39,433 bases of DNA from a virus, in the IMG/VR virus record IMGVR_UViG_3300017917_001799, positions 1-39,433 of that record; one strand, 5' to 3'. Below the pieces are notes generated by a model. That model had not been told where the DNA came from and ran no database searches. It worked only from the letters and a program-made list of their open reading frames with translations. Positions 11,197 through 31,236 of the stretch are shown one piece after another. Made by a program: the position numbers and the translations under genes. Numbering within the stretch: the stretch's first letter is position 1; every line of letters starts with the position of its first letter.

Positions 11197-11200
11197 GTTG

Positions 11201-11827: not shown

Positions 11828-13026
11828 CATCAAAACTAATATTTCCCTACGCTATCAATTCTACACAACAAATAAGAAAGATAGAACAATATACAAAATT
11901 TGGTTTTTATTCTCAAGGTAAAGAACTTATAGATCTTAGTCTTGGAAACTGCGGTTGTTTTCCTTTAGGGTTCCAACGACAAGACATTATTGATACCGTC
12001 AATAGACAAATGAGCGATATGCCATTTTGTAGCGGAGAATTTTTTACCACTAACGATTCTGTAATCGAACTCAGCGAAAGATTATTTGAGATCAGTGGAG
12101 GGTTTCGAAGTGTATTCGCACTCAGCGGAAGTGATGCAATTGAAGGTGCTCTACGTTTAGCACAATTATATCATTTACAAAAAGGTAATAACAGAAATAA
12201 ATTTTTAGGATTTGTAAAAAGTTATCACGGAAGTACATATCTTAGCTCAAGTGTTAGCGATGCTACCTACATGACTAACTTCTTCGGAAAAGATGAAAGA
12301 TGTGTATTATCAGATTATAATCTTGACGATATCACTAGCGATTTAACTGCGGTGGTAATAGAAACAGCTAGTTGGCAAAACGGACTAAAAGATCTTGGAG
12401 AAGAATTTTGGAGAAATCTAAGAATACGTTGTAGTGAATTAGATGTGGTATTAATAGTCGACGACATAGCCATGTGTGGCGGTAAGACTGGCAGCTTCTT
12501 TGGATTTAAAGATTTAGTTAGACCTGATATATTCACCATGGGTAAAGCGTTAACATCTGGATACTTTCCGCTCAGTGCTACTATGGTCGAACATAAGATT
12601 TTTGATGTAATCAAAGATCAGGTATTTTGTCACGGATTCACTTACAGTTTCAGTCTCAGTGGGATATATTCAACATTAGCATATCTTAATGTAATTGAGA
12701 GAGAAGGTATATTTGAGAATTATAAATCTATAGAAAAACAAAGTAACGACTTATTTTCTAGATTAGAAAGTGATAGGTTGATCAAAAGTTATAACCATCA
12801 TGGCTTAGTTTACAATTTGAATCTGTTGACTGAGAAACCTGTAGATACAACTTTTGAACAATTGTTGTTTAGTTACGGATTAAACGCAGGCATGTGGAAC
12901 GAGGGCGGAAGTGGTCTATTGATCACTATACCACTAAATGCCGATTTAGAGTATCTAGAACAATTAGAATCTAGATTATATCAAGCATTAGTTAATTATA
13001 GAACGCTTTTCTCCGGATCTAACTAG
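11824..13026 (+). CDS. PLP-dependent aminotransferase, class III-like
   Basis: A 400-residue protein of fold type I. ALSGSDAIEGALRLA (99-113) matches the phosphate-binding SGSEA segment, YHGSTYL (134-140) the PLP-stacking segment, IVDDIAMCGGKTG (211-223) the DEVxxGxGRTG segment with D213 or D214 contacting the pyridine N, and FTMGKALTSGYFP (237-249) holds the Schiff-base K241. This family moves the amine of omega-amino acids, amino sugars or glutamate semialdehyde. It is coupled by ATGA to the upstream oxygenase, so oxidation followed by amination or deamination is a plausible pair of steps. The end overlaps the amidinotransferase gene by 39 bases on the other strand. Confidence 0.85.
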   Translation: MTSKLIFPYAINSTQQIRKIEQYTKFGFYSQGKELIDLSLGNCGCFPLGFQRQDIIDTVNRQMSDMPFCSGEFFTTNDSVIELSERLFEISGGFRSVFALSGSDAIEGALRLAQLYHLQKGNNRNKFLGFVKSYHGSTYLSSSVSDATYMTNFFGKDERCVLSDYNLDDITSDLTAVVIETASWQNGLKDLGEEFWRNLRIRCSELDVVLIVDDIAMCGGKTGSFFGFKDLVRPDIFTMGKALTSGYFPLSATMVEHKIFDVIKDQVFCHGFTYSFSLSGIYSTLAYLNVIEREGIFENYKSIEKQSNDLFSRLESDRLIKSYNHHGLVYNLNLLTEKPVDTTFEQLLFSYGLNAGMWNEGGSGLLITIPLNADLEYLEQLESRLYQALVNYRTLFSGSN

Positions 13027-14058
13027 ATCTAGTGTTAAACAATGGATTCCCGATTCCCAGAACAGTCCATGTCTTTGTTTAACTACATGGCAGTTGATTC
13101 CTCGAGACTCCATTAGTTTAAAAATTTTAGGTTGTACATTAGAAAAAAGTACATTCTGCGGATCAAGAACTAGTACATTACTGTCAAAGAATACTTCTTG
13201 CGCATATCCTTTCCATTCGGTTAACCATTTATCTAACCAAGCATTGGAATATTTGCCGCCTGTGCTTTGATAATCAGTGATAAATTTTACGTCATCAAAC
13301 TTTTCAAAAAAACTTTCCAGGGCAATAATTCTTTTGTTTCTTAACGGTTCCGGAACCCAATTAAAGTTTACACAAAAAACAGTTTCATCATCGGTCATAA
13401 ACCAGCCATGATCGATGTGTCCCCAACCTCTCTGATGTGTATCACCAACATCGACTATAGCATTTTTTTCCACATTACGTTGCATCCACATCAATCCTGC
13501 AGAGGTACCAGGCCCTCGACAATTGGTAATTAATTTGTCTCCGCATTTAAACATAGTAGCAGTATGCCATAGTAATCTATCTTTCAGTTGTTTATGATAA
13601 ACATCCTCTCCGTTAGCCCACCATTTGTCTACTAAGGTTTCTAATATAGGAGGAGGTTGACTAATCCAGTTGTAACCTCTATCAAACAATTCTTGAAATA
13701 TATGGTTGTAATTAACGCTGTCGAGGTATCTATCTGGCATACTTGTATAGGTTTGATAGATTGTATGACCATAGGCTAAGTATTGATCTCTTGGAACCAG
13801 GGGTGCTGTGGGATTTACGACAACAAAATTTTTTAGATCTACGTCATGACCATAATTTGTTACCTTAGGTCTGTGAACTTTGATTCCTAATTTGCTGATA
13901 TAATCTGCTAGATTTTGAAGATCTTCTTTGGTTTCTTGTAAAATAATATTAAATTTATTTCTGGCTTCAGAATCTAGAGCCCAATCTAAATCTCCGGGAG
14001 AATAACAATCTCCCACAATAACTTCTTTCAACGGATCCCAGTTAGTCCAAATATTCAT
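12988..14058 (-). CDS. Amidinotransferase (glycine amidinotransferase/arginine deiminase superfamily)
   Basis: A 356-residue protein with the guanidino-modifying-enzyme plan: NWDPLKEVIVGDCYSPG (6-22) at the N-terminus, NPTAPLVPRD (82-91), the acid-base pair H214-x-D216 in GWGHIDHGW, and the catalytic C340 in SGIHCLTLDLVR near the C-terminus. Enzymes of this group transfer the amidino group of arginine to an amine acceptor, or hydrolyse it. It is the last gene of a long leftward operon and follows the DUF1415-like gene with a 4-base overlap. With the aminotransferase encoded opposite, it could produce and then cap an amine, but that is inference. Confidence 0.85.
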   Translation of the reverse strand: MNIWTNWDPLKEVIVGDCYSPGDLDWALDSEARNKFNIILQETKEDLQNLADYISKLGIKVHRPKVTNYGHDVDLKNFVVVNPTAPLVPRDQYLAYGHTIYQTYTSMPDRYLDSVNYNHIFQELFDRGYNWISQPPPILETLVDKWWANGEDVYHKQLKDRLLWHTATMFKCGDKLITNCRGPGTSAGLMWMQRNVEKNAIVDVGDTHQRGWGHIDHGWFMTDDETVFCVNFNWVPEPLRNKRIIALESFFEKFDDVKFITDYQSTGGKYSNAWLDKWLTEWKGYAQEVFFDSNVLVLDPQNVLFSNVQPKIFKLMESRGINCHVVKQRHGLFWESGIHCLTLDLVRSGEKRSIIN

Positions 14059-14483
14059 GTGTTTAATATCTCTTCTAAATAGCTATTGTCCCAGAAAGAA
14101 TAATAATTGGTTTTAGATAATTTATCTCTAGCATCATTTAAATTATCTCTCCACTGACATAGTATCAGATTATACTTACCGTTGTTAGATCTTACTCCGT
14201 TGATTTCTGTATATCTATCTTTATGATCAGGTAAAAAAATCAAATCTGGAAGTATTTTATTATATTCGTCGGCGATAGATTTTAATTCAACTTCGGAATA
14301 ATCGTCAGGAAGAACGTAGATAATTAATTCGAAATTCCAGGGCGGTGGATCTATATCACTACCGTCTGTTTTTAATATTTCATATTCTGAATTTTTCGCA
14401 AAAGGGCAGAGAGAAAATCCACCTAGCATTATCTGCTTAGTAGAAAGGTGTTCGATCCATTCTTCGATATGCTGTTTTATCAT
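14055..14483 (-). CDS. DUF1415-like protein
   Basis: A 142-residue protein. The N-terminal GFSLCPFAKNSEYEI (about 22-36) resembles the conserved LCPFA stretch of DUF1415 proteins, whose biochemical role is not established. Cys26 in this segment is the obvious candidate functional residue. It overlaps both neighbours by 4 bases (ATGA), so it is likely made in step with the amidinotransferase and the aspartyl-hydroxylase-like enzyme. Confidence 0.45.
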   Translation of the reverse strand: MIKQHIEEWIEHLSTKQIMLGGFSLCPFAKNSEYEILKTDGSDIDPPPWNFELIIYVLPDDYSEVELKSIADEYNKILPDLIFLPDHKDRYTEINGVRSNNGKYNLILCQWRDNLNDARDKLSKTNYYSFWDNSYLEEILNT

Positions 14484-15208
14484 ACATTCTCGTTAATGGT
14501 TCCCCGTTCGAAAGGAATCAATCCAATGCTTTGACTTTCATCGTGATAAAAAATCTCATCCCCCATACCGATCTTATCTTTTAATAGATCAACAATCATA
14601 ATCAATCTATATTCATTGGTATAATTATGTGCGCTGTGCAAGAATTGATTATTAAATCCAAACAAATCATTCCAAGTCGTTTCTTCGCCTCGAACTTCTA
14701 GAAATAGATCTCCTTGGGGTACGATTAAAGGAATATGTATTCTTACATATTTTCCATCTACGTTCTCGGGTCCAATGTGGCGTTTAAGGATAGTGTACGG
14801 CAGTAATGCACTATAGACCATTCCGTAACAAGAATCGCTGTATTTTTCTAACAGTTTCATCGCTGTAGGATATCGTTTAGCAGATTCAGAGTCAATAGTT
14901 TCGTCGAATGTTCTCACACCGTCTAGTTCAACGACGTTTCTAATTAATACACTCCTCCAATTATCAAAATTGCCTGACCATTTATAGGTCTCAGAATCTC
15001 TAGATAGTAGCATCTTAAGAGCTTCTTCCATAGAACAATTTAAATATTGTGGTTGTATGGTATTAACACATTGAGCATCGACTGCTTCCTTTAGTGTAGA
15101 ATATCCTTGCATAAAGTCGTCTATCAGACCTTGCCTATAAGACATAAGATCATCTGCAACTGGAATGTCTTTTCTTGTCCAAATTCTTTTTCTCATTTTA
15201 GTATCCAT
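14480..15208 (-). CDS. Aspartyl/asparaginyl beta-hydroxylase-like oxygenase
   Basis: A 242-residue protein. H144-x-G146 (KRHIGPEN), H191 (FLHSAHN) and R201 (YRLIMIVDL) match the AspH pattern, in which iron is held by two His and the usual Asp is replaced by Gly. HIPLIVPQGDLFLEV (158-172) is the typical strand pair between them. AspH relatives hydroxylate Asp or Asn in peptides, and some act on free amino acids. The N-terminal 70 residues are helical and unassigned. Overlaps the DUF1415-like gene by 4 bases and the SDR by 11. Confidence 0.8.
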   Translation of the reverse strand: MDTKMRKRIWTRKDIPVADDLMSYRQGLIDDFMQGYSTLKEAVDAQCVNTIQPQYLNCSMEEALKMLLSRDSETYKWSGNFDNWRSVLIRNVVELDGVRTFDETIDSESAKRYPTAMKLLEKYSDSCYGMVYSALLPYTILKRHIGPENVDGKYVRIHIPLIVPQGDLFLEVRGEETTWNDLFGFNNQFLHSAHNYTNEYRLIMIVDLLKDKIGMGDEIFYHDESQSIGLIPFERGTINENV

Positions 15209-15809
15209 TTAGTATTGTAATGCTAGAAATAAAATTCCTTTGATTTATTGCTTCTAACAAGAGCTTTACGGTATTTACAAAATCTTCAACAGTAATGATG
15301 CTGTTAGTTTCCATTACTTTTTGATATAATTCAAGACCGTTATGCTCGGGTGTGTCATAGGGATTATAAAAATTAGTTTGACAAATGCCGGGCATGATCA
15401 CAATGCTTTTACACTTACTACCGCTGTGATTTATTTGCCAACTAATTTTGTTTATTGCGTATTTCTCTTCTCCGTATTGTGTTAACCATGTAGCATTACT
15501 AGGAATATCAGCCAAAGGTTCTGCTGCTAAAGAACTTGTGTTAATTAAGTAATGTTGATCACTCCAATGTTGTTGTTGCCATAATTTAGCTATCTCAACC
15601 TGTTGATAATGATAGTAGGCATTGTTAAAAAACAGGTCACAGTCCCTAGTGAGTTCGACGATTCTATCGACATTTTCTTTAGAGCTAATATCAAATCCGT
15701 TATCTTTACTAAAACCCTTAACATTATAACCCAATGATTGAAAATAATCATAGACTCCTTTGCCTAATCCACTGGTGTGTCCCGTTACCGCTATTGATTT
15801 AAAATTCAT
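15198..15809 (-). CDS. Short-chain dehydrogenase/reductase (SDR)
   Basis: A 203-residue protein, short for the family. The nucleotide motif TGHTSGLG (9-16), the NNA segment (62-64), catalytic S92/S93 (INTSS) and Y117-x-x-x-K121 (KYAINK) are all in place, so it should be an NAD(P)H-dependent oxidoreductase acting on an alcohol or ketone. It sits between two AspH-like oxygenases with 11-base overlaps, which fits oxidation of a hydroxyl group installed by one of them. Confidence 0.8.
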   Translation of the reverse strand: MNFKSIAVTGHTSGLGKGVYDYFQSLGYNVKGFSKDNGFDISSKENVDRIVELTRDCDLFFNNAYYHYQQVEIAKLWQQQHWSDQHYLINTSSLAAEPLADIPSNATWLTQYGEEKYAINKISWQINHSGSKCKSIVIMPGICQTNFYNPYDTPEHNGLELYQKVMETNSIITVEDFVNTVKLLLEAINQRNFISSITILNGY

Positions 15810-16332
15810 ATGTGCCTTCCTTGGATACTTCTATCAATACAACTATTCGAGGATCTTCTGTAAAATTCCAAACAGAATGTGGTAAACTCACATCGAGTAT
15901 AAAGCATTCTCCCTCCACCCATTTTCCTTCTATACCATTTTCTTTAAAGCCACAATCGCCCTCGGGTACAATTAAAGGCACATGAATGATAAGATAATTT
16001 TCAAATCCTTCTTCGGTATCTGTATGCGGTAGTACTTCTGCGCCAGGATCTAATATGCTAATGCCAATACTTCTACACTTATCTCCTAGATAATCTGCTA
16101 TATTTTTCAACACCGGATATTTTTCAGAATTTTCTAAATCCCATTCCCCCATATTTTTTATAACAATCATCTTCCATTTCTTATGAATGTCTAGTTCCGC
16201 ATAAGAACCAGCAGGATATAAAGGAACTTGGCTAGTGTCGAGACCATTTACGTTTAGAAATTCTTCTCTAAGATCGGATATCTTACTGTTTATATAATCC
16301 TTATATATGAATCTGTTTACATCATACTCCAT
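15799..16332 (-). CDS. Aspartyl beta-hydroxylase-like Fe/2OG oxygenase
   Basis: A 177-residue protein with H103-x-D105 (LPHTDTEEG), H152 (SLPHSVWN) and R162 (PRIVVLIEV), plus the strand pair IIHVPLIVPEGDCGF (115-129) that closely echoes the 14480-15208 enzyme. Unlike that protein it has the full His-Asp-His triad. It overlaps the SDR gene by 11 bases and the large unknown gene by 11. Confidence 0.75.
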   Translation of the reverse strand: MEYDVNRFIYKDYINSKISDLREEFLNVNGLDTSQVPLYPAGSYAELDIHKKWKMIVIKNMGEWDLENSEKYPVLKNIADYLGDKCRSIGISILDPGAEVLPHTDTEEGFENYLIIHVPLIVPEGDCGFKENGIEGKWVEGECFILDVSLPHSVWNFTEDPRIVVLIEVSKEGTYEF

Positions 16333-17641
16333 TCCAGTCTCCGTTCATGCGCCAAGTAGGCATTGTCGGCTTAAGATCATCTATCATTATTATCTTAGCC
16401 GATGGAAGAAAATCTCGTATTTTAGATATCAACATGTCTCTAGATTGTATTCTATATTTGAGAGGAACAAAAGGTGCAGCAGGGTCATAGTTGAATATAT
16501 GGCTAAGATGAATAATCGTTTTATCTTTATTTTCTAACCAACCTTCTACAGGAAGAGCTTTGTTTAACACTAGGTCTTCGTGCCTGAATTCAAATTTAAC
16601 ACGCTTTTGAATATCAGTCCATTCTGGAATATCTATATCAACGATTCTTCCCCCATCGGCTAACCATTCCTGACCACTTTTATTTAAAAAACTAGCTCGA
16701 TCGTTGAGATATTGTTTAACGAATAGGGCATAATCACAACCATTCCAACCGTCTACTATAGCTTTCATAGTTTCTAATGCTAAGAGATTATAATCGACGA
16801 ATCTAACAACAGTATTATCATCGTACCCATATCTGATCAAATAATCTATCCAATTCAAACCACTGGCTTGAATTATCAATTGCTTAACAGGACCTTGAAA
16901 CTCAATTTCAACTAATTCTTCTGTGTTATGAGGATAGAATATAGTCTGTGCCGCCACTTGATTTTTTCCGTAAAGATATGTGCTGGCTAACATAAAACTC
17001 GGTTCGTAGTTAGGATAATAAAACTTTTTATTATTTCTTATACTATCTGGAAATACAAGGATTGACTGATTATTAGCTAAGCCTATACTAATTATATTCC
17101 AACCATGCCATTTGTGTTTATAGGACTTTGATTGTGATCCGGCACGTATCCATAGCGGTGTGTAGTCATCATGTATGTTTTCTTGACTACGCAATGGTTC
17201 TATTTGCTGGTGACTAGAATAATAGGCAAATTTTCCTACCTCAGGACAGCCCAGTTCTGCATAGATATCAAGATTAATGATATAACATTGTTCGTGCAAT
17301 TCATAATAGCCATCATCTCTATCGGGAATATGTCCCATCAAGAAGAATTTATCTCCATATACTATATCTTCGACCGCATTAAAAAATTCATCTCCGTTGA
17401 TAAACTCAGTTCCTGTACTTAATACCACTGCATGACTATAATTTTTAGCAGCTTCTTTCAGCAGTTGATCCTCATCTATTCCTTGCAGAACATCAAAGCC
17501 GCTAGATGTTATTTTCGTAAGAACGAAATCACTGAGGTTTTTCATTAACTCTGCAGTCCATTGGGTTTGACATGTAGATATTCTGTCCAAGAATATAAAC
17601 ACTATATCTCTAGAAGGAGAATTGCTTTCAAACTTTACCAT
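16322..17641 (-). CDS. Large two-part protein of unknown function
   Basis: A 439-residue protein not recognised with confidence. The N-terminal third has AVVLSTGTEF (about 71-80), FFLMGHIPDRDDGYYELHEQ (99-118) and LDIYAELGCP, which read like an alpha/beta domain. The middle has QLIIQASGLNW and VVRFVDYNLLALETMKAI, a pattern that recalls class I methyltransferase motifs (a strand ending in Asp followed by a helix). The C-terminus has IIHLSHIFNYDP and AKIIMIDDLKP. A fused binding or transferase protein is possible. It lies within the oxygenase operon, overlapping both neighbours, so it probably belongs to the same process. Confidence 0.5.
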   Translation of the reverse strand: MVKFESNSPSRDIVFIFLDRISTCQTQWTAELMKNLSDFVLTKITSSGFDVLQGIDEDQLLKEAAKNYSHAVVLSTGTEFINGDEFFNAVEDIVYGDKFFLMGHIPDRDDGYYELHEQCYIINLDIYAELGCPEVGKFAYYSSHQQIEPLRSQENIHDDYTPLWIRAGSQSKSYKHKWHGWNIISIGLANNQSILVFPDSIRNNKKFYYPNYEPSFMLASTYLYGKNQVAAQTIFYPHNTEELVEIEFQGPVKQLIIQASGLNWIDYLIRYGYDDNTVVRFVDYNLLALETMKAIVDGWNGCDYALFVKQYLNDRASFLNKSGQEWLADGGRIVDIDIPEWTDIQKRVKFEFRHEDLVLNKALPVEGWLENKDKTIIHLSHIFNYDPAAPFVPLKYRIQSRDMLISKIRDFLPSAKIIMIDDLKPTMPTWRMNGDWNGV

Positions 17642-18281
17642 AATTTTTATTATAAGATCTTACTAATAAATCACAAAATTCTTCTTTTCTATTACCCAAG
17701 ATTAAATTAGCGATCATGTGTATTCTATCTTTACTGCTACGATTAAACACAGCATGATTCTTACTGATATTAATCAACATAATTTTTCCTTCTCCCCATG
17801 GTACAGTACCATGCCCTTCTATTTCCATATCGCAGTTTACAGGATGAACTATCGCAACATTGATAGGTAATATACAGTCTAAAGGATCTATACCATCTGG
17901 TATTTCTCCGTCGTTGTGCCAATCAATATATCCTCCGGCACTAACTTTCATAAATCTTATCCTTGAATAGCGTTCAGTAGGAAACTTATTTTTCCAGAAT
18001 TCTGTAATTACAGGAGTTCGGTATGCTAGGTCAGTAAACTGATAAGGTGCCTGGTATTCGTTATAACCATAATTATCAGCAGTATATGTTTTGTCTATAC
18101 CTAAACCATGTAAACAACAACTGCTCCAACCAGCACTAGATGATTCTCTGTACTCTTGGTAATAAGATTCTACCTCTAATATCTGCTGTTTCCAAACATC
18201 AGTATCAAAGTTTATATCTAATTCTAACCAAGGAATTTCTTTCTTTCTAAGAATAATTCTAGCCTGCTCTATGATATCCAT
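17628..18281 (-). CDS. Aspartyl beta-hydroxylase-like Fe/2OG oxygenase
   Basis: A 217-residue protein with H122-x-D124 (DWHNDGE), H176 (KNHAVFN) and R186 (KDRIHMI). IRFMKVSAGGYID before the first His and ILPINVAI after it match the strands around the AspH iron site. Overlaps the neighbouring genes by 13-14 bases. It is the last of six consecutive oxygenase-type genes on this strand (17628-21255). Confidence 0.75.
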   Translation of the reverse strand: MDIIEQARIILRKKEIPWLELDINFDTDVWKQQILEVESYYQEYRESSSAGWSSCCLHGLGIDKTYTADNYGYNEYQAPYQFTDLAYRTPVITEFWKNKFPTERYSRIRFMKVSAGGYIDWHNDGEIPDGIDPLDCILPINVAIVHPVNCDMEIEGHGTVPWGEGKIMLINISKNHAVFNRSSKDRIHMIANLILGNRKEEFCDLLVRSYNKNYGKV

Positions 18282-18838
18282 TTTGAAAAAATCTCTATTG
18301 CTTGTTCCATAGTCAAACCTTTTTCTGGATCTGACTTTAAACTGATATCACAACTCAGTGCCCAGCGAGGTTCGAATGTACTGTTATGTATGTTGTGAGG
18401 AATACCAACTTGAACTAAAGAAGGCCATTTGACCGGCTGACTATGTAAATGATTCACTTGTCTAGGATGATATTGCACATAAGGTGTTCCTGCCTGTGTT
18501 TCTGTGATTTCGAAAGGAGTCTCTCCTTCTTTAACAGAATACCAATGCATCATACTTCCCGCACCATCGACTACCCAATTCATAGTGCAACGATTTAAAA
18601 GTTGTCCGTCGCCGTCTATATGTATTCCGCATTGTTTACCTTTAGGAGTATAAAATATCAAAGGCGGATATGTCATCACTAATCCTAAGCTGTCTAACCA
18701 TCCGGTAAATTCTTCTGATACATTATCGTAGTCTGCAAACCAAATTTCTGGATCATTGCTAGTTTGATTTAATATTCCAGGATTTTTTAATGGGTGTTTA
18801 ACAGGAATCGTTAAATCGCAACAATAATTAGATTTCAT
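18269..18838 (-). CDS. Fe/2OG-oxygenase-like protein
   Basis: A 189-residue protein with H73-x-D75 (CGIHIDGDG), a second His at 148 or 151 (GIPHNIHN) and R158 (EPRWALSCDI). MNWVVDGAGSMMHWYSV (86-102) is the strand pair between the sites. It differs from its neighbours in detail, so the run of oxygenases is not a simple recent tandem duplication. Confidence 0.65.
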   Translation of the reverse strand: MKSNYCCDLTIPVKHPLKNPGILNQTSNDPEIWFADYDNVSEEFTGWLDSLGLVMTYPPLIFYTPKGKQCGIHIDGDGQLLNRCTMNWVVDGAGSMMHWYSVKEGETPFEITETQAGTPYVQYHPRQVNHLHSQPVKWPSLVQVGIPHNIHNSTFEPRWALSCDISLKSDPEKGLTMEQAIEIFSKWIS

Positions 18839-19394
18839 CTTTAGGCCATCCGAAAAAATTAAACAGATATTTTGTTTTGGTTCCCATATTCAAACCACCA
18901 TGCCAATCTTGCCAATCGTCCCATTGATAGGTATTGCCTTGCTTTTCGTTGTAAAAAACATCTTTATCAACTATAAAGACCTGACCAAAACTAGGTTCGC
19001 AGATATGACAGGTGAAATGTCTAGGTTTTCCTTTAGATAGCAATTCAGCCTCTTGGTCAGGCATTTTATAGTCAGGGTGCCATGCTACAAGATGCCCAGG
19101 TGAAACTGCACTAATCCAGCAGCCTGCAGGCTCAACATTCAACCATTCACCGAATTTTGTAACATACTCTTCTGGAAAATGTTCTCCTGGCAAATAATCT
19201 ATCCATCTTACTGAAGGACTTGAAACATATCCTGCACGTTCCCACACTTTAATCAACGATTCTACTTTAGGATTGTCAATGTGAATATCGTCATCTTGCT
19301 CTGTTCCTCTGTTTCTAGGAGGAGTAGATTCCAATATGTTCATTAGTTCCGGCCAATTCATTATATGATTAGAGTTGCCTATAAACTTAGCCAT
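18828..19394 (-). CDS. Fe/2OG-oxygenase-like protein (paired with the 19387-19941 product)
   Basis: A 188-residue protein with H106-x-D108 (AWHPDYK) and H165 (QDWHGGLN). K175 (TKYLFNF) or nearby residues may replace the usual Arg. It is a tandem paralogue of the next gene upstream: both share the order WISxxxPG, HxD, GNTYxWD and DWHxGxN. Overlaps of 8-11 bases tie it to its neighbours. Confidence 0.7.
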   Translation of the reverse strand: MAKFIGNSNHIMNWPELMNILESTPPRNRGTEQDDDIHIDNPKVESLIKVWERAGYVSSPSVRWIDYLPGEHFPEEYVTKFGEWLNVEPAGCWISAVSPGHLVAWHPDYKMPDQEAELLSKGKPRHFTCHICEPSFGQVFIVDKDVFYNEKQGNTYQWDDWQDWHGGLNMGTKTKYLFNFFGWPKDEI

Positions 19395-19941
19395 TGTTCT
19401 TTACTCCTAAGAAATGAAACATGAACTGATCATGCAGTCCACAGTTTCCGCCTGCATGCCAATCCATGAAATTATCCCAGCGATATGTGTTACCTGATGG
19501 TTCACAATGAAAGCAACTGTCTCCAACAACCACTACTGCTCCAACATAAGGCTGTGAAATAAAAACGCTGTATCGTATCAGTTCTCCTTGCGCTAGATAT
19601 TTTTCCATATCGTCATCAATATCTCTATGGATAGGAGCATACTTACCGGGTCGCAGTCTACTGATCCAGGCTCTAGCACATTTTAATCCAATAAACTTTT
19701 CAAAATCCTCAACTACTAACTTAGGAAAATCTTTTTCAGGATAATAATTAATCCATTCAACGGTATCAACTTCTGAGTAACCTGCTTCTTCCCAGAGTTT
19801 GATAATCTCATCGAACCTACCATCTACATTTCTATAAAAATCTTCTCCGTAGGCCACACGTTGACCATCTTTAATCATTAAAGAATCTACGATGCTGTCC
19901 CACTTACCCGAATAAAAATTGTCTATAAATTTAGTTGACAT
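19387..19941 (-). CDS. Fe/2OG-oxygenase-like protein (paired with the 18828-19394 product)
   Basis: A 184-residue protein with H105-x-D107 (PIHRDID) and H162 (DWHAGGN), preceded by WISRLRPGK and GNTYRWDNF, as in the following gene. No Arg clearly occupies the 2OG position, as in its partner, so co-substrate binding may be altered. The start is 1 base after the stop of the upstream gene. Confidence 0.7.
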   Translation of the reverse strand: MSTKFIDNFYSGKWDSIVDSLMIKDGQRVAYGEDFYRNVDGRFDEIIKLWEEAGYSEVDTVEWINYYPEKDFPKLVVEDFEKFIGLKCARAWISRLRPGKYAPIHRDIDDDMEKYLAQGELIRYSVFISQPYVGAVVVVGDSCFHCEPSGNTYRWDNFMDWHAGGNCGLHDQFMFHFLGVKNNG

Positions 19942-19942
19942 C

Positions 19943-20584
19943 TCAAAACCTTATAACATAACCATCTTCTTCGAACTTCTTAACACTTTTATTAATTAAG
20001 AATTCGTGTTGTTCATTATCAATTATTCCTGCACAGACTAAAATAATTCTCTGATCTAAAATTATATCAGCACCGTGCCATATGTCCTTGTTATTGAACG
20101 CATATACTGGAGCATTTTCTGGAATTAAAGGATAGATCTTTTCTCCGTTCTGTTCTTTTGAAATAAAAAATGATCTTTTATTGTAATGAGGAGTTAACAA
20201 TATATTGTATCTTTCAGGGCTCATAGGATTAGTAATGTCAACATCATCCCTGTGAGCAGGTAAAACATCAGTGTGCAGATTAAGAGCAGCACCTATTAAT
20301 TGTTTATAAGGAAGTAATTTCAAAACATCAACTAGTTCTGGAAACTGTTTTTCAAATTCGGGTGCATAATACACTTGATAATTTTCTCTAAGATTGTAAT
20401 CTCTGTCAGATTCAGGAAAAACTTCTCTAGCATCAGTCCAATCGTTGACTGGATTTCTCGATGCTACCATACATAGAGTTGAAGTATAATCTAAGTTAGT
20501 GATAGAATTATTCAATACATAATCAGTTAGCTTTCTTCTATCTGGAATTTTACACGGAAGGTCAATGGGAGTAAATGCTATCAT
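19943..20584 (-). CDS. Fe/2OG-oxygenase-like protein
   Basis: A 213-residue protein with H111-x-D113 (PAHRDDVD), H170 (DIWHGAD) and R179 (DQRIILVCAG). NILLTPHYNKRSFFI (127-141) forms the strands between the sites. The full His-Asp-His plus Arg set suggests an active enzyme. The start overlaps the upstream stop by 4 bases. Confidence 0.7.
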   Translation of the reverse strand: MIAFTPIDLPCKIPDRRKLTDYVLNNSITNLDYTSTLCMVASRNPVNDWTDAREVFPESDRDYNLRENYQVYYAPEFEKQFPELVDVLKLLPYKQLIGAALNLHTDVLPAHRDDVDITNPMSPERYNILLTPHYNKRSFFISKEQNGEKIYPLIPENAPVYAFNNKDIWHGADIILDQRIILVCAGIIDNEQHEFLINKSVKKFEEDGYVIRF

Positions 20585-21255
20585 ACCTTGGTTATCTCTA
20601 CAGTAAAGCCCTTTGATTCTAATTTTCTTATGAAAGGGGTTAATATTTCAATATCGGTGAAATTTAATAAAACTTCCCGATCATTGACTTTTTCAAATCC
20701 AGTAATGCTACCAGACTTAATAGCTCTGTTGAAAAAGGTCATAATCTCAATATATGACTCTTGTTTCCAATCATAATCTCCTCCTGATAATTTTAACAGA
20801 TATCCAGGAGATTGAAATTTCGGTAATGGGATTCTTATATTAAGATGTATTCTATCTCTAGGTCCGAAGTTAGCCGCTATATGAACCACTCCGGCATCCA
20901 TATGCCACAAAGATCCGTCTGAGGGTAAATGATAGAATTTTTCGTTAGTGAAATCTAAAAGGTAAGCAAATGGATTTGTTATGATGGCCACATGATATCG
21001 ATCATCTGGATCGGCGTGAGCACTATAGGTTTCGGAAGGAGTTAATCTTAAAAGTCTAGCTTCTCCGGGATTATCGATCGATGCTAATACATCGCCCAAC
21101 GGAGTGTTTTGAAATTCTGGCTTGGTAACAAAAGGTCCAGACAATAATTTTCCTTGACAATCGTTGAGTAGTAAACTTTTACCAAAATCGCCAAGACTTT
21201 TAACTTGTTCGATCAGGGGTTCGATGGGAAATTTTTTATCAGTTACAGTTAGCAT
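20581..21255 (-). CDS. Aspartyl beta-hydroxylase-like Fe/2OG oxygenase
   Basis: A 224-residue protein with H80-x-D82 (SAHADPDD), H125 (VVHIAAN) and R135 (RDRIHLNI). LWHMDAGVVHIAANFGPRD (117-135) is close to the AspH third-ligand region. A C-terminal extension after residue 145 has no match that I recognise. This is the leading gene of the oxygenase run, preceded by GATAAGTA only 4 bases before its ATG. Confidence 0.75.
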   Translation of the reverse strand: MLTVTDKKFPIEPLIEQVKSLGDFGKSLLLNDCQGKLLSGPFVTKPEFQNTPLGDVLASIDNPGEARLLRLTPSETYSAHADPDDRYHVAIITNPFAYLLDFTNEKFYHLPSDGSLWHMDAGVVHIAANFGPRDRIHLNIRIPLPKFQSPGYLLKLSGGDYDWKQESYIEIMTFFNRAIKSGSITGFEKVNDREVLLNFTDIEILTPFIRKLESKGFTVEITKV

Positions 21256-21290: not shown

Positions 21291-21989
21291 TTAATGATTG
21301 AATAATTCTTGATAAAGGTTTGGCAATATATTTTCAGGCCAATGTACATAGGTAGTTAACGATCTTTTAAACATTATTTCGATGTTAAGCCGTTTATTTT
21401 CATCTAGTGCTTCTTCAAACCGATGAGCAGAAACATTTATCAATCCTTTGACCTTTTCAAAATCAATATAGGGATCTTGTTGTTCAATACAACCGTAAAA
21501 ATCCATAGTTTTTAATATCCCGCCTTCGATAAAATAACAATGAGGATACAGAGTAATTTTATAATATCCTTCATTATAGATATCCTTTATTATATCAGAC
21601 ATCTGGTCTTTCCAATTTGGACACTCTATGTTTAAATCACCTTCACCAAAACATATCTGATTACAATTTTTACCCGGCCATTGTAAGAATATTTTCTGGT
21701 CAGCGAAATCGACATCTAATATTGTCGGCGCCCAAATTTTATTTTTAAAAACTTCTAGATATTTTATTTCTCTTTCGAAGAAAAATCTAACCATTTCTTC
21801 TGTGTAATACGGACGTTCCGGTAGATGCTCTCTAACCCCTTCATTTTGATAAGGGTGTGTATGATCAAAATTCATACAGAGTACATTATTCTCCGGATTG
21901 ATTAGCGGAGTATAAATTAAATTTGATTCGATCAATCTACCATTTTCGTAGTTGATTTTAAAATAAGGGTTCCAGTTATCAGTGTTCAT
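21291..21989 (-). CDS. Degenerate protein-kinase-fold-like protein (paralogue of the 7370-8056 gene)
   Basis: A 232-residue protein. FEREIKYLEVFKNKIWAPTI (71-90) resembles the kinase N-lobe helix and strand, and CYFIEGGILKTMDFYG (151-166) looks like the end of the catalytic loop plus a DFG-like MDFYG with D163. The HxD catalytic Asp is not evident (LYPHCY instead), so activity is doubtful. It has kept a better DFG than its paralogue. It is separated from the oxygenase run by 35 bases and has its own GATAAATA element. Confidence 0.45.
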   Translation of the reverse strand: MNTDNWNPYFKINYENGRLIESNLIYTPLINPENNVLCMNFDHTHPYQNEGVREHLPERPYYTEEMVRFFFEREIKYLEVFKNKIWAPTILDVDFADQKIFLQWPGKNCNQICFGEGDLNIECPNWKDQMSDIIKDIYNEGYYKITLYPHCYFIEGGILKTMDFYGCIEQQDPYIDFEKVKGLINVSAHRFEEALDENKRLNIEIMFKRSLTTYVHWPENILPNLYQELFNH

Positions 21990-22031: not shown

Positions 22032-22889
22032 GTGGAACGAATACGCACAGCACCAAGTTATAGTTTAGAATATGCCGAAGTTGAGAGGCCATCACCTCTC
22101 ACAGATCGACGAATAGAATTGATAATCCAAGACGTCTTATCAGGAAAAATAAATCCAGATATCAGTGATCAGATCTACGATTCATTTAAGACAGAAGTTG
22201 AAAATTGGATTTTATCTAGTAATCTGAATAAGCTAACAGGATTAGAATCCTATACAAGAAAAGATATCATAATCGGGTGTACTCAATTTATAGACAATCT
22301 TTATATGGATGGTCCTGTACAGGTATTACACAATGATTATAGATATCATCAGAGATTAAGTTTAGCGTTTTTTAAAGATGTAGGATCTTTAATTCCGGGA
22401 ATTCCATTAATAATTGCTATGCCATTTCCGAGTATAGGTGCTCCTCATCGAGACATGGAGGAAATACTTTATGAAGCAGAAAATAAAAACGTTCCTGTAC
22501 ATATTGATGGGGCTTGGATTACCTGTTGTCGCGATATTACATTTGATTTTCGTCATCCATCTATTGCGTCTATCGGGATTAGTCTGAGTAAAGGTCTTGG
22601 GTTAGGATGGAATCGAATAGGTTTACGTTGGATTAAAGAACCTAAACAAGATTCTATTTCTATCATGAACGACTTTCATATGAATAATCGTGCCTTGGCA
22701 ATGATAGGTTTGCATTTTGTAAGAAACTTGCCGCCAGACTATCTCTGGAATACTCATGGGCAAAATTATTATAAAATATGCAATGATTTTAATTTAACAC
22801 CTACTAACAGCATCTACCTGGCATTGCGAAATAATCAACCTATTGGAATTAGTCCACTATTGAGGTATCTAGAAAATGAATCATTATGA
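22032..22889 (+). CDS. Short PLP-dependent-enzyme-fold protein
   Basis: A 285-residue protein containing what looks like the large domain of a fold type I PLP enzyme: IPLIIAMPFPSIGAPH (124-139), the pyridine-binding Asp in VHIDGAW (D159) and a Lys in SLSKGLGLGWNRIGLRW (K187), the position of the Schiff-base Lys. It is about 100 residues shorter than normal aminotransferases and seems to lack much of the N-terminal and small domains, so it may be a reduced enzyme or need a partner. The frame is closed by a stop just upstream, so GTG 22032 is the only early start. It leads the four-gene operon with PP-loop and two radical SAM genes. Confidence 0.6.
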   Translation: MERIRTAPSYSLEYAEVERPSPLTDRRIELIIQDVLSGKINPDISDQIYDSFKTEVENWILSSNLNKLTGLESYTRKDIIIGCTQFIDNLYMDGPVQVLHNDYRYHQRLSLAFFKDVGSLIPGIPLIIAMPFPSIGAPHRDMEEILYEAENKNVPVHIDGAWITCCRDITFDFRHPSIASIGISLSKGLGLGWNRIGLRWIKEPKQDSISIMNDFHMNNRALAMIGLHFVRNLPPDYLWNTHGQNYYKICNDFNLTPTNSIYLALRNNQPIGISPLLRYLENESL

Positions 22890-23616
22890 TATTGATGGAG
22901 TTATTATACCCTTCGATCCAGACTGGCGTAGCGTAGCAATCAGCCTTAGCGGTGGTGCGGACAGCGCCTTGTTGGCCTATTTGATCTGTTGTTTAGCTCA
23001 AGAACATAAGATAAACAATTTTACAGTACATTGTATTAGTCATACGAGGATGTGGAAAACTAGACCCTGGCAAGGTTACGATAGTTTAAGAATCTTTAAT
23101 TGGTTAAGAACATATTTTGCACATATTAATTTTGGAAGGCATACTAACTTTATCGCGCCAGAACTAGAATACGGGAACATCGGTCCTAGCCTAACTGATG
23201 AATACGGAAAAAATGTTAGCGGGGACAACATAGAAATTCGAGCATTTGCTGAATACATCTGTTACCAAAACGATTGCGATGCCTACTATAATGCCGTGAC
23301 AAGAAATCCTAGAGGAATAGATCTAGGAGGAATGAAAGAACGAGACATCGAACCAACTGACAAAAATCAACATCTACAGATTATGCAACACATGGGTAAG
23401 TGGGCCTTACATCCTTTTAGGTTCGTAGAAAAAGATTGGGTAGTAAAGCAGTATTATAGATTAGGATTAGAGGATCTTTTTAACTTAACTAGAAGTTGTG
23501 AGGGAGAATTTAAAGATATAAATTATACAAATTATAAACCTAATCAATACGTTCCTATTTGTAATAATTGTTTCTGGTGTAAAGAAAGGAAATGGGCCAT
23601 TGAACAAAACCAGTAA
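22876..23616 (+). CDS. PP-loop ATPase, QueC-like
   Basis: A 246-residue protein. The PP-loop SLSGGADSALLA (23-34) binds ATP and adenylates a carboxyl or carbonyl group. Four Cys at the end, C208 (RSCEGE), C229, C232 and C235 (CNNCFWCKERKW), give the zinc site of QueC, the 7-cyano-7-deazaguanine (preQ0) synthase. The central part differs from what I recall of QueC, so a different adenylated substrate is possible. A QueD homologue starts at 39228, but no QueE is evident. It overlaps the previous gene by 14 bases and the next by 17. Confidence 0.7.
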   Translation: MNHYDIDGVIIPFDPDWRSVAISLSGGADSALLAYLICCLAQEHKINNFTVHCISHTRMWKTRPWQGYDSLRIFNWLRTYFAHINFGRHTNFIAPELEYGNIGPSLTDEYGKNVSGDNIEIRAFAEYICYQNDCDAYYNAVTRNPRGIDLGGMKERDIEPTDKNQHLQIMQHMGKWALHPFRFVEKDWVVKQYYRLGLEDLFNLTRSCEGEFKDINYTNYKPNQYVPICNNCFWCKERKWAIEQNQ

Positions 23617-24862
23617 TACTTTTTGTATGCATCCTTTTACAGGATTAGCCACTAGAGAAGACGGAGCCATTTGCGCCTGTTGCCGAAGCCACCCAGTTGG
23701 CTTTATAGATCAACAACCATTAGAAGAGATCTGGAACAACGAAACTATGAAACGTATTCGAAGGCAGGTTCTTAACAATGAAAGACCACCAGAATGCGAA
23801 CCTTGTTTTAGTTTAGAAGATCAGGGCGTGGTAAGTCTAAGAAAGAGGCACGTAGAAGGACATATCCCAGAAGCACGTATTAACCTCTATCCTAATGCCT
23901 TGGACAATCTACGCAAAGATTATTCTATGCCATTTGAAATTCCTACTATGGAACTAAAATTGAATAATCTCTGTAATTTAAAATGCCGTATGTGTCATCC
24001 AATGGACAGTACCTCTTGGAACGACTGGAGTGAAATTAAGGACTTCTATAAGAAGGAAGGCAACATCATGTATGCCATAGTAGAAGAACATAATCTAGAA
24101 AATAAACCTTTTTTAGATAAATTTCAAGACGATCCTAGATGGTGGGCCAGTTTAGAAAAATTATTACCTTACTTCCGTCGTGTAGAGTTTGCAGGCGGTG
24201 AGCCTTTAATGGATCCGCAACACTATCGAATCTTAGACATGCTAGCACCTTATGGTCATCAGATAGAAATTAAGTATGCTACTAATCTAAGTATGTTAGG
24301 AAAAAGTAATCGCACTATTTGGGAATACTGGCCTAAATTCAAAAGTATCGCTGTAAATGTTAGCATAGACGGCATTGGATCTAGTTACGAATATGTTCGA
24401 GGAAACGCATCTTGGGCCGAATTGATTAATAATATAAAACAGATCCAGACTATTCCTAATATCAGTAGAATTGTAGGAGCAGTCACAGTACAGGTTAGTA
24501 ATGTTTTAATACTTGACAAAATGATAGAATACTTCTTAGATGATTTAGGAATCGTATTTCATACTCATCGAGTAGAATATCCTAAACTTTTATCTGCACA
24601 GGTTATTCCTTCTGACTTAAGAAAAATAGCTATAGAGAGACTAGAACAGGTATCTTTACGTGTGCCTGAATTTAAATTTGTTAAAAAGTATCCGCAACTA
24701 TTGCCTTATACGCTAGGACAGATTAAAGACAATATAAATTATTTAAAAGCAAGAGATCAAAGTTATCTATGGCAAGACTGTGTCGAATTCAATCGTCGTT
24801 TAGATAAATCTAGAGATCAAAGTTTTACAGATATAACCCCAGAATTTAAAGACTATGTATAA
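23600..24862 (+). CDS. Radical SAM protein with N-terminal twitch/SPASM-like cysteines
   Basis: A 420-residue protein. The N-terminus has FCMHPFTGLATREDGAICAC with C9, C25, C27 and C28, then EIWNNETMK and C66-x-x-C69 (CEPC), the pattern of a twitch-type auxiliary cluster domain placed before the core. The core has C125, C129 and C132 (CNLKCRMC) and FAGGEPLMDP for SAM binding. The 26735-28150 product has the same plan. The start is TTG at 23600 with AAAGGA upstream, overlapping the QueC-like gene; ATG at 23627 would remove C9. Substrate unknown; twitch proteins often act on peptides or sugars. Confidence 0.8.
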   Translation: MNKTSNTFCMHPFTGLATREDGAICACCRSHPVGFIDQQPLEEIWNNETMKRIRRQVLNNERPPECEPCFSLEDQGVVSLRKRHVEGHIPEARINLYPNALDNLRKDYSMPFEIPTMELKLNNLCNLKCRMCHPMDSTSWNDWSEIKDFYKKEGNIMYAIVEEHNLENKPFLDKFQDDPRWWASLEKLLPYFRRVEFAGGEPLMDPQHYRILDMLAPYGHQIEIKYATNLSMLGKSNRTIWEYWPKFKSIAVNVSIDGIGSSYEYVRGNASWAELINNIKQIQTIPNISRIVGAVTVQVSNVLILDKMIEYFLDDLGIVFHTHRVEYPKLLSAQVIPSDLRKIAIERLEQVSLRVPEFKFVKKYPQLLPYTLGQIKDNINYLKARDQSYLWQDCVEFNRRLDKSRDQSFTDITPEFKDYV

Positions 24863-25748
24863 ATTAACTAGCTCTTGGCCGCATCAAGATCAGATTAAAG
24901 TTGAATGGAATATAGGCAAACGTTGCAATTATGATTGCACCTATTGTCCCAAGGAAATACATGATAATTTTAGTCCACATACGCCGATAGATGTTTTAGA
25001 AAAAACTATAGATCAATTAGTAGAGATAGGAAAACCTATAAGATTAAGTTTTACTGGCGGGGAACCTAGTGTGCATCCAGACTTTGAGGATCTATTAGAA
25101 TACTGCAAAAGAAAAGGTATATTCTGGATTAACTTAACTACCAATGGAACTAGGTCTAGCCGTTGGTATCTGCAACACGAAATGTTTATTAATCATATTG
25201 TTTTTAGTCTACATTTTGAACACGACTGGCAGCGTGTGGCTAGAACCATTAACGAATTCTACGACGGAACAGAAATTGATTTTTTTGTTAATGTTATGGC
25301 TCACCACGATCATATGGATAATGTTCGTAAGGTTGTGAAACAGTTTAAAGAAGTTGGAATTAAGTTTGCGGTTCGAAGAATACGTTGGACCGAAGGCGAT
25401 CATAATGTATTTGACGATCTAAAATATAACGGAAATGATCTCCAGTGGATTTTAGAACAAGATGCCACTGTCAAACCTAATGTTAGAATAGATGATGACA
25501 AAGTAATGCATGCCAATGATGTAATCAAATTACACCTAAATCAATTCAAAGACTGGTCTTGTAATGCCGGTATTGAAAGTTTGATGATTAATTGGGACGG
25601 TGAAGTGCATCGTGCTACCTGTAGGGTAGGAGGTAGCTTAGGTAATATCTACACCGGAAGTTTTATTGTTCCAAAAGATCCTGTTATATGTACCAGAGAT
25701 TGGTGTACCTGTGCTGCTGACATTCCCTTGACTAAGTTTAAACTTTGA
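24855..25748 (+). CDS. Radical SAM protein with C-terminal auxiliary-cluster cysteines (convergent pair, plus copy)
   Basis: A 297-residue protein. Core C24, C28 and C31 (CNYDCTYC), SFTGGEPSVHPD (about 67-78) and TTNGTRSSRWY follow the standard order. The C-terminus has WSCNAGIESL, then C279, C284 and C286 (CTRDWCTC), likely ligands for a second Fe-S cluster, ending in TKFKL. The 25638-26738 product on the opposite strand is a paralogue with the same C-terminal plan. Overlaps the upstream radical SAM gene by 8 bases. Confidence 0.8.
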   Translation: MYKLTSSWPHQDQIKVEWNIGKRCNYDCTYCPKEIHDNFSPHTPIDVLEKTIDQLVEIGKPIRLSFTGGEPSVHPDFEDLLEYCKRKGIFWINLTTNGTRSSRWYLQHEMFINHIVFSLHFEHDWQRVARTINEFYDGTEIDFFVNVMAHHDHMDNVRKVVKQFKEVGIKFAVRRIRWTEGDHNVFDDLKYNGNDLQWILEQDATVKPNVRIDDDKVMHANDVIKLHLNQFKDWSCNAGIESLMINWDGEVHRATCRVGGSLGNIYTGSFIVPKDPVICTRDWCTCAADIPLTKFKL

Positions 25749-26738
25749 TATGTGTGTCTCTGGCTGGCAGGTACATTTAGAAATAGCACAGATAGATGGT
25801 AACAATTTTGGTTGAAACTTTTCAATAAAATTATCGTCGAAAATATTATATTGAAAATCTAGATTGTAAATCGTTTGACCACAAGATCCTTTTATGTAAC
25901 CTTGTGAATCAACAAAAACACACTCAAGTCCTATATCGCAACTCCAACCTTTAAAATTATTCCAATTGTTGTTTATATAGACCTGAGGTTTTCCTTTTAT
26001 AGTTTTACCGTTATCCAACCAACCTTTGCTTTCATGGAATCTAATAACACCGTTTGAAAACAGATGTCTATTTTTTATAAACCAAAAGAGTCCAGGAGCT
26101 CTCTTTATTTCATCTTTGAGATATATTTTCTGTTTTTCAGTATAAGAAATAACTGCATCGTCGGACCATTCCACTAGTTCCTTTGCCTGTATAACCCAAT
26201 CATATTTGCTTTTTTTCTTAAGATATTCAACAGCGGCTACGCAGTTATCCCAGTTTTCGTGATCCATTAATACCAATGCTGTAACTTTCTTTCCAAGAGC
26301 ATGAAGAGTATCAGCCACTTCTATATGATGATCTAGGTTGGCCTGTGAAACATGCAAAGACAATACCGCATCGTCAATAGCATGTCCATATTCTTGCCAC
26401 CAGCGTAGAGTCCTAGATCCATTAGAAATAATACTGATATAAGTATCATGTTCTTTCTTCATGGCTAGTATAAATTGTTCAAGACCTTTCCATAGTGTAG
26501 GTTCACCGCCTAATATCTTTATGTGAAATTGATCTTTTCCTGCATGTTTTTTGTAGTAGTTAATTAGATGATTGAAATGTTTAATTGTTAACTCTACATC
26601 TGTCGGCGCTTTGTCTGTACCCTCGAATGATCCAGGAAAACAATACCTACATTTAAAATTACAGAGATTATGAGGCATCCATCTTAATTCTAATATATTA
26701 GATTTCTGCGTTGAAACAATCTTTATCGGATGAGTCAT
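25638..26738 (-). CDS. Radical SAM protein with C-terminal auxiliary-cluster cysteines (convergent pair, minus copy)
   Basis: A 366-residue protein. Core C26, C30 and C33 (CNFKCRYC), ILGGEPTLWKG (74-84) and SNGSRTLRWW match the plus-strand paralogue. The C-terminus has WSCDIGLECV, then CAISKCTC, and reaches SKFKL at residues 331-335, where the paralogue stops. Here the frame continues for 31 further residues that are the antisense of the other gene, giving a 111-base coding overlap. The tail is probably a by-product of a lost stop codon. Starts 4 bases inside the previous gene's end (ATGA). Confidence 0.8.
   Translation of the reverse strand: MTHPIKIVSTQKSNILELRWMPHNLCNFKCRYCFPGSFEGTDKAPTDVELTIKHFNHLINYYKKHAGKDQFHIKILGGEPTLWKGLEQFILAMKKEHDTYISIISNGSRTLRWWQEYGHAIDDAVLSLHVSQANLDHHIEVADTLHALGKKVTALVLMDHENWDNCVAAVEYLKKKSKYDWVIQAKELVEWSDDAVISYTEKQKIYLKDEIKRAPGLFWFIKNRHLFSNGVIRFHESKGWLDNGKTIKGKPQVYINNNWNNFKGWSCDIGLECVFVDSQGYIKGSCGQTIYNLDFQYNIFDDNFIEKFQPKLLPSICAISKCTCQPETHISKFKLSQGNVSSTGTPISGTYNRIFWNNKTSGVDIT
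25734..25745. repeat. 12-bp palindrome at the junction of convergent radical SAM genes
   Basis: AAGTTTAAACTT is its own reverse complement and encodes Lys-Phe-Lys-Leu in both reading directions, once for each of the two convergent paralogues. The plus gene stops directly after it; the minus gene reads through. Confidence 0.85.
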
Positions 26739-30821: not shown

Positions 30822-30831
30822 AATATGCTAA

Positions 30832-30839
30832 TATTTAAT
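30832..30839 (-). promoter_or_regulatory. Late-type promoter element (ATTAAATA)
   Basis: On the minus strand ATTAAATA is followed by 10 bases and the ATG at 30821; no ribosome-binding site is seen in between. It is divergent from the sigma-70 promoter of the tRNA-like gene. Confidence 0.5.
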
Positions 30840-30849
30840 CACTTGTCTG

Positions 30850-30878
30850 TTGACTCTGATTAAACTAGGTTATATAAT
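30850..30878 (+). promoter_or_regulatory. Sigma-70-type promoter for the tRNA-like gene
   Basis: TTGACT (30850-30855), 17 bases, then TATAAT (30873-30878). The expected start, about 7 bases downstream, is at the first base of the acceptor stem (30885), so the RNA could be made with its mature 5' end. Confidence 0.8.
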
Positions 30879-30884
30879 ATACTT

Positions 30885-30997: not shown

Positions 30998-31005
30998 TTT
31001 ACCTT

Positions 31006-31013: not shown

Positions 31014-31040
31014 AATGACGCATAACTAAAAGGAAAAATT

Positions 31041-31235: not shown

Positions 31236-31236
31236 A

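Follow-up and report, generated by a model that had tools for sequence, protein, structure and literature searches.

Why would a virus keep six small oxygenase genes side by side: as copies of one another, or as enzymes with different tasks? The question is raised by an uncultured, T4-like bacterial virus in the IMG/VR database (record IMGVR_UViG_3300017917_001799), all 39,433 bases of which we analyzed (hereafter the window; by the listed open reading frames, or ORFs, it is 95.7% coding). A preliminary description of this DNA had placed six consecutive ORFs at 17628–21255, all on the minus strand, and had argued that the iron oxygenases they encode are too diverse to reflect copy-number expansion and may serve separate hydroxylation sites. 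The ORF coordinates bore out the placement, and the diversity did indeed prove far greater than copy-number expansion would give, each gene being an old, separately conserved lineage that keeps its place in a fixed order. We favor, at slightly better than even confidence, the reading that the six genes encode non-redundant oxygenases, dependent on 2-oxoglutarate (2OG) and Fe(II), that belong to one conserved phage-borne tailoring pathway.

Six predicted iron oxygenases on one strand

We named the genes of the run OX11, OX10, OX9, OX8, OX7 and OX6 in transcription order, using OX1–OX5 for the window's other five oxygenases; all eleven are packed into a 13-kb stretch. The genes of the run, with the motif residues of their products, are:

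20581–21255, minus strand: OX11, Asp/Asn-hydroxylase-like 2OG oxygenase (H80-x-D82, H125, R135)
19943–20584, minus strand: OX10, putative 2OG oxygenase without a Pfam family (H111-x-D113, H170, R179)
19387–19941, minus strand: OX9, 2OG oxygenase fold without a Pfam family (H105-x-D107, H162, Gln172 at the usual Arg position)
18828–19394, minus strand: OX8, paralog of OX9 (H106-x-D108, H165, Lys175 at the usual Arg position)
18269–18838, minus strand: OX7, double-stranded beta-helix oxygenase without a Pfam family (H73-x-D75, H148, R158)
17628–18281, minus strand: OX6, Asp/Asn beta-hydroxylase family oxygenase (H122-x-D124, H176, R186)

The genes had been called overlapping, which holds for four of the five junctions (4, 8, 11 and 13 nt) but not for OX9 and OX10, which are separated by a 1-nt gap.

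Because a loose HxD/E...H...R pattern also turns up in 14% of shuffled copies, we dropped the bare motif search as proof of oxygenase identity. We accepted the oxygenase reading because the HxD motif and the distal His are conserved across homologs, family size ranging from 10 to 48 sequences. The HxD/E...H iron triad is present in all six proteins, with both HxD and the distal His invariant among the homologs of OX6 (25/25), OX7 (48/48), OX8 (18/18), OX10 (10/10) and OX11 (17/17). The triad varies in a few OX9 rows, where the first His is found in 26 of 26 homologs, the Asp in 25 and the distal His in 24. Conservation extends to the Arg in OX7, whose motif residues including R158 are kept in 47–48 of 48 homologs, and in OX11, in which those including R135 are invariant (17/17).

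An iron-oxygenase fold had been claimed for all six proteins, and for five of them it was supported. OX6 matched PF05118 (Asp_Arg_Hydrox) with 43.8 bits (E 3.2e-11), above the curated cut-off of 22.6 bits, which was also passed by OX4 (55.4 bits) and OX5 (87.6 bits). OX11 fell below the cut-off at 18.5 bits; its family profile led to the solved hydroxylase Cpz10 (7v4f, E 5.9e-24) and to L-proline cis-4-hydroxylase (E 1.1e-8). Likeness to the Asp_Arg_Hydrox family is thus carried by Pfam for OX4, OX5 and OX6 and by the strong Cpz10 profile match for OX11, whereas OX7, OX8, OX9 and OX10 had no PF05118 match in the Pfam scan. A profile search of the PDB returned nothing for OX7 and weak matches for OX8 and OX9. 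The AlphaFold model of OX9 (predicted local distance difference test score, pLDDT, 93.1; predicted template-modelling score, pTM, 0.90) resembled many 2OG oxygenases in the PDB at Z 12–15, with 3dkq at the top (Z 14.9) and prolyl hydroxylases at Z 12–13. That of OX7 (pLDDT 94.7) showed the same barrel, with PDB matches at Z 8–9.5 that were mostly 2OG oxygenases, led by a proline 3-hydroxylase (Z 9.5). The double-stranded beta-helix fold is therefore assigned by model to OX9 and OX7 and predicted by homology for OX8 (through the modelled OX9), OX6 and OX11. OX10 is the weaker case, with no Pfam match, no meaningful PDB match (a single profile match there, to myosin, was at chance level) and a weak profile link to OX1, which scored 33–36 against at most ~20 for reversed controls. 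For all six enzymes, 2OG-dependent activity is a prediction.

The slot for the residue that anchors 2OG, ~10 residues past the distal His, holds Arg in OX6, OX7, OX10 and OX11, Lys in OX8 and, in the window, Gln in OX9. The anchor positions given earlier (135, 158, 179 and 186, in OX11, OX7, OX10 and OX6, respectively) were exactly right; among OX10 homologs, seven of ten have Arg and two have Lys. The products of the genes at 18828 and 19387 (OX8 and OX9) had been said to lack the Arg. The canonical residue is indeed absent, as these two proteins, unlike the PF05118/AspH/Cpz10 family, have no Arg on the last core strand, but neither is simply anchorless, a term that for OX8 in particular would go too far. 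Its anchor position carries Lys in 18 of 18 homologs, and that of OX9 (n = 26) carries Lys in 15, Gln in five including the window, and other residues in the rest. With its Lys invariant, OX8 has probably kept the ability to bind 2OG; more interest attaches to OX9, in which Lys and Gln predominate. R123 of OX9, on the neighbouring strand, is kept in 25 of 26 homologs and could substitute for the canonical Arg. Human AspH carrying R735Q offers an analogy for Gln at this position: it retains activity at a reduced level, with a Michaelis constant (Km) for 2OG more than 60-fold higher, and uses other 2-oxoacids (PMC12816917).

Ancient separation and fixed gene order

Within the window, clear BLAST relations were found only for OX8/OX9 (31% identity), OX2/OX3 (30%) and OX4/OX5 (27%), with OX5/OX9 borderline (E 1e-4). 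Among the six, randomised pairwise tests added only OX6/OX11 (z 7) to OX8/OX9, and for most other neighbours in the run the alignment was no better than chance and BLAST similarity was undetectable. Because aligning the eleven oxygenases directly was unreliable (OX11 was misaligned and mean column identity was 22%), we relied on per-family alignments and profile-profile comparison in place of one deep tree; the latter added links between OX5 and OX6 and between OX3 and OX7 (probability 91% for OX3/OX7). When genes from different viruses were placed in a maximum-likelihood tree, those of the OX8 slot grouped apart from those of the OX9 slot with support of 100/99, and the pair is therefore older than the viruses compared. 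These two genes had been described as a close tandem duplicate; they are paralogs, but with 31% identity and so old a split, "close" overstated their relationship. Nonsynonymous divergence (dN) was low and synonymous divergence (dS) saturated, consistent with purifying selection, the dN/dS ratio being qualitative only.

Recent tandem copy-number expansion would account for six oxygenase genes lying side by side and for the paralog pairs OX8/OX9, OX2/OX3 and OX4/OX5. However, these pairs share only 27–31% identity, OX8 and OX9 diverged before the virus lineages did, and most of the other neighbours cannot be aligned above chance, leaving this explanation with virtually no chance of being correct. 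The tree and orthology data rule out recent duplication, and with it the outcome that the preliminary description had named as its own refutation, a single shallow, recently duplicated clade.

Orthologs were surveyed by IMG/VR scans and ORF comparison, which yielded 17 viral contigs, about 15 of them distinct. The run sits inside a conserved enzyme cluster of ~25 kb that is common to the 17 contigs and keeps the gene order OX11-(OX10)-OX9-(OX8)-OX7-OX6-u439-(OX5)-SDR-(OX4)-u142-AmidinoT-AmT3, in which brackets mark optional genes, SDR encodes a short-chain dehydrogenase-like protein, and AmidinoT and AmT3 stand for the amidinotransferase and aminotransferase. OX9, OX7, OX6, u439, SDR and u142 are present in all 17 contigs, OX8 in 14 and OX10 in seven, and, the window aside, four contigs have the complete six-gene run, the cluster being near-identical in two of them. 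The amidinotransferase and aminotransferase occur in 15 of the 17; the other two contigs end soon past u142. Orthologs in the same slot mostly share 45–90% identity, with OX11 often at 30–39%. Because nearer OX11 relatives (53–63%) lie in related viruses that lack the rest of the run, OX11 was possibly exchanged between cluster types. The relatives closest to the window's OX11 after that of L002, found in L003, L012, L016 and their relatives, belong to viruses without most of the six genes.

Among isolates (50,697 phage records), there was no match for OX7, OX9, OX10 or u439, and the only matches of OX6 and OX11 were weak ones, to a single Pelagibacter phage. A Gp23 capsid gene of the T4 type is present in two large records of the group.

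A constant association is that of OX6 with its neighbour u439, a pair that is also present in distant viruses (L042–L046) lacking most of the other oxygenases. A genome scan with u439 recovered related proteins in bacterial metagenome-assembled genomes (MAGs), where they stand alone in L112–L115 and are fused to OX6 in a single polypeptide in L116–L118, with the two parts in one order in L116 and in the opposite order in L117 and L118. By their assignment, the fusion contigs belong to Neisseriaceae (13 kb, perhaps derived from a phage) and Bdellovibrionia (including one of 710 kb). Because the two fusions have opposite orders, this coupling suggests that OX6 and u439 share a substrate. Searches of Pfam, PHROG, NCBIfam and the PDB gave no convincing match for u439; a GT-A-like half and a Rossmann-like half may be suspected from motifs alone, though we make no claim of it.

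A tailoring pathway and its alternatives

In the pathway that we favor, the oxygenases would use O2 and 2OG, and each would most likely hydroxylate, or otherwise oxidise, its own position or intermediate of a building block. Resembling an amino acid or a peptide, this building block would also be guanidinylated and radically modified. OX6 would act together with u439, and the partners of the oxygenases would be about nine radical S-adenosylmethionine (SAM) enzymes, the amidinotransferase, the aminotransferase, a flavin halogenase-like enzyme, the SDR and an acyltransferase-like protein. Because the six enzymes belong to different families within one conserved cluster, different reactions or positions are likely; the separate hydroxylation sites proposed earlier go beyond that, as 2OG oxygenases also desaturate, halogenate or epimerise. 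Among solved proteins, the amidinotransferase is closest to the natural-product enzymes StrB1, HsvA and SxtG, and Cpz10, the match of OX11, is an enzyme of caprazamycin biosynthesis (PMC9814697); by analogy, these likenesses point to small-molecule chemistry. Because tail-fibre-type genes flank the cluster, we lean weakly toward a product that acts on the interaction with the host, by altering its surface or in some other way. A bolder version, which we put forward tentatively and think has a lesser chance of being right, is a complete specialised-metabolite pathway of the phage, its product an amino-acid- or peptide-like compound, guanidinylated and oxidised several times, that radical-SAM and 2OG enzymes would make during infection. 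Such a pathway would be unseen in any cultured phage, and at least two of its oxygenase families, OX7 and OX8/OX9, belong to no curated family, the 2OG site of one being non-Arg.

Several points weigh against assigning the six genes to one such pathway. The fold of OX10, the weakest assignment, rests on its motif and the weak profile link to OX1. OX10, OX8, OX5 and OX4 come and go in otherwise similar clusters, so that the steps would not all be obligatory; the OX11 slot, at 30–39% identity in most clusters, may be swapped between lineages; and u439 and u142 have no assignable function.

The oxygenases could instead act on surface-glycan or lipid precursors, altering the host envelope in infection (for example, by lipopolysaccharide decorations) and excluding competing phages, an explanation that overlaps with the tailoring pathway and differs from it by naming a destination. 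It would fit the tail-fibre-type genes at both window ends and the FkbM methyltransferase nearby, and it has a parallel in the hypervariable host-recognition island of pelagimyophages, whose glycosyltransferases and radical-SAM cassettes were linked by the authors to surface change (PMC7029224). However, none of the cluster proteins was recognised as a glycosyltransferase, a nucleotide-sugar enzyme or an O-antigen flippase. So rich a content of oxygenases and radical-SAM enzymes is, to our knowledge, not typical of lipopolysaccharide loci, and we regard envelope modification as possible but doubtful. Modification of proteins or peptides, whether to make a ribosomal peptide product or to hydroxylate virion proteins such as tail fibres, seems unlikely. 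The nearest solved folds do include AspH, prolyl hydroxylases and a viral collagen prolyl hydroxylase, and the twitch/SPASM radical-SAM enzymes resemble peptide maturases, but no precursor-peptide ORF was found in the cluster, whose sole sizeable adjoining gap (30822–31236) holds a tRNA-like element and the histone-H1-like protein Hc1; no peptidase was recognised; and amidinotransferases and aminotransferases are typically small-molecule enzymes. A cluster for a ribosomally synthesised and post-translationally modified peptide (RiPP) was rejected because the cluster holds no precursor candidate, although a precursor could lie elsewhere in the genome.

A role proposed for the 2OG oxygenases of cyanophages (Sullivan et al., 2010; PMC3037559) would have the enzymes mainly burn 2OG to succinate, thereby tuning host nitrogen sensing or energy. 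Such consumption has no need for many divergent, individually conserved families in fixed order beside radical-SAM and amidinotransferase genes, and it leaves the OX6-u439 fusions unexplained. The photosystem gene PF00124, sought as a clue to a cyanobacterial host, was found in none of 12 related records, and we judge 2OG consumption highly improbable. 2OG oxygenases hydroxylate DNA bases in other phages, and the presence of a QueC-like PP-loop protein and ThyX would suit hypermodification of DNA bases here. Yet none of the scanned proteins was recognised as a base hydroxymethylase, DpdA, a base glucosyltransferase or a TET/JBP protein, and the closest relatives of the oxygenases are amino-acid and peptide hydroxylases; with no marker genes recognised, we rejected DNA hypermodification, to which we assign an extremely slim chance.

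The tailoring pathway can be set beside three known phage systems. In Campylobacter phages CP220 and CPt10, five radical-SAM genes and a glycine amidinotransferase lie in a variable block, seen by its authors as an interchangeable metabolic module (PMC2853527). The window likewise combines several radical-SAM genes with an amidinotransferase, and the CP220 amidinotransferase (annotated as a possible glycine amidinotransferase) is homologous to that of the window (29%), its radical-SAM proteins are 21–28% similar, and a tail fibre gene lies ~12 kb away in CP220. However, profile hidden Markov models of OX1–OX11 found none of these families in the 41-kb CP220 segment, nor were u439, the SDR and u142 found there, whereas the window has eleven oxygenases. 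In pelagimyophages and cyanomyophages, a T4-like, glycosyltransferase-rich host-recognition island, situated between VrlC and gp14, combines tail fibres with radical-SAM cassettes (PMC7029224); the window, which likewise has a variable block with tail-fibre-type genes at its flanks, differs in having eleven oxygenases and no recognised glycosyltransferase. Marine T4-like cyanophages encode up to five small 2OG oxygenases per genome, including asparaginyl hydroxylases; the role put forward for these oxygenases lies in 2OG/nitrogen signalling (PMC3037559). They resemble the window in having several such enzymes, but those of the window number eleven in 13 kb and lie within a conserved, pathway-like cluster.

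The metabolic genes known from phages are single genes or short sets of host origin. If the reading is correct, a pathway of 20–30 genes with eleven non-redundant oxygenases, whose order is preserved in ~15 uncultured lineages and which was not found in isolates, would imply that certain phages conduct multi-step chemistry of their own while infecting. The cluster provides a defined gene set for expression, and its enzymes offer natural Arg-to-Lys and Arg-to-Gln variants of the 2OG site.

Neighbouring genes and other elements of the window

The cluster includes about nine radical-SAM genes, two of which possibly encode B12-binding enzymes. Its other genes, and the fibre genes beyond it, are:

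168–1796: tail-fibre-type protein with a major-tropism-determinant N terminus (Mtd_N)
1782–4956, minus strand: two radical SAM enzymes, possibly B12-binding (1782–3344 and 3337–4956; PF04055, B12-binding matches sub-threshold)
5668–6837, minus strand: radical SAM protein with an HMPTM-type zinc ribbon (PF04055, E 1.3e-20; PF23545, 52.9 bits)
6828–7382, minus strand: acyltransferase-like protein with a weak FeeM match (PF21926, E 0.0096, below cut-off)
8096–8899, plus strand: OX1, oxygenase without a Pfam family (orthologs at 75–88%; HxD/H/R in 10/10)
8893–10485, minus strand: flavin tryptophan-halogenase family protein (PF04820, E 5.3e-90)
10579–11175, plus strand: OX2, oxygenase, paralog of OX3
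11198–11827, plus strand: OX3, oxygenase, paralog of OX2 (30% identity), with the profile link to OX7
11824–13026, plus strand: class III pyridoxal phosphate (PLP) aminotransferase (PF00202, E 7.7e-43)
12988–14058, minus strand: amidinotransferase, a guanidine-transfer enzyme (phmmer matches to StrB1, 1bwd, E 3.5e-20; HsvA, E 2.3e-18; SxtG; AGAT)
14055–14483, minus strand: u142, conserved protein of the cluster (17/17 clusters)
14480–15208, minus strand: OX4, Asp/Asn beta-hydroxylase family, H-x-G replacing H-x-D (PF05118, 55.4 bits)
15198–15809, minus strand: SDR, short-chain dehydrogenase-like protein (weak Epimerase/adh_short matches; 17/17 clusters)
15799–16332, minus strand: OX5, Asp/Asn beta-hydroxylase family oxygenase (PF05118, 87.6 bits; optional in the cluster)
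16322–17641, minus strand: u439, 439-aa protein adjoining OX6 in every cluster, its domain fused to OX6 elsewhere
22876–23616, plus strand: PP-loop (QueC-like) ATP-pyrophosphatase-like protein (weak PF01171/PF06508 matches, below cut-off)
23600–25748, plus strand: two radical SAM proteins (23600–24862, twitch/SPASM; 24855–25748; NF033640, 327.8 bits; PF04055, E 5.9e-16)
25638–30821, minus strand: four radical SAM proteins (starting at 25638, 26735, 28143 and 29838; PF04055; NF033640, 405.8 bits for 26735–28150)
29227–29847, minus strand: inferred 206-aa methyltransferase-like protein (no family match)
37614–38504: fibre-like protein

For the product of 1782–3344, the top NCBIfam matches were B12-binding radical SAM models, below the cut-off, and the product of 28143–29234 matched radical SAM models sub-threshold. 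Tail-fibre-type genes lie near both window ends and flank the variable block, an FkbM methyltransferase lies near the cluster, and ThyX is present. Where the iron-binding Asp is expected, OX4 homologs (n = 5) have Gly in three and Ala in two. Gly or Ala at this position is also found in human AspH and in 2OG halogenases, and we have for this reason left the reaction type of OX4 open.

Two proteins of ~230 aa (7370–8056 and 21291–21989, both on the minus strand) look alike by eye, are conserved in the clusters and have no Pfam family. Both have a kinase-like stretch (CYFIEGGILKTMDFYG in the second) but not the usual catalytic Asp.

A tRNA-like element at 30885–30997 (plus strand) has a perfect 7-bp acceptor stem, a canonical T-arm (GTAGG-TTCGAAT-CCTAC) and an encoded CCA. 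The stretch in between measures ~78 nt rather than ~44 and contains variable hairpins but no evident anticodon arm of the normal kind, and neither ARAGORN nor Rfam calls the element; an element in the same slot is conserved in several related loci. Between it and a conserved 148-aa protein sits Hc1 (31041–31235, plus strand), a 64-aa histone-H1-like protein (PF07432, 59 bits).

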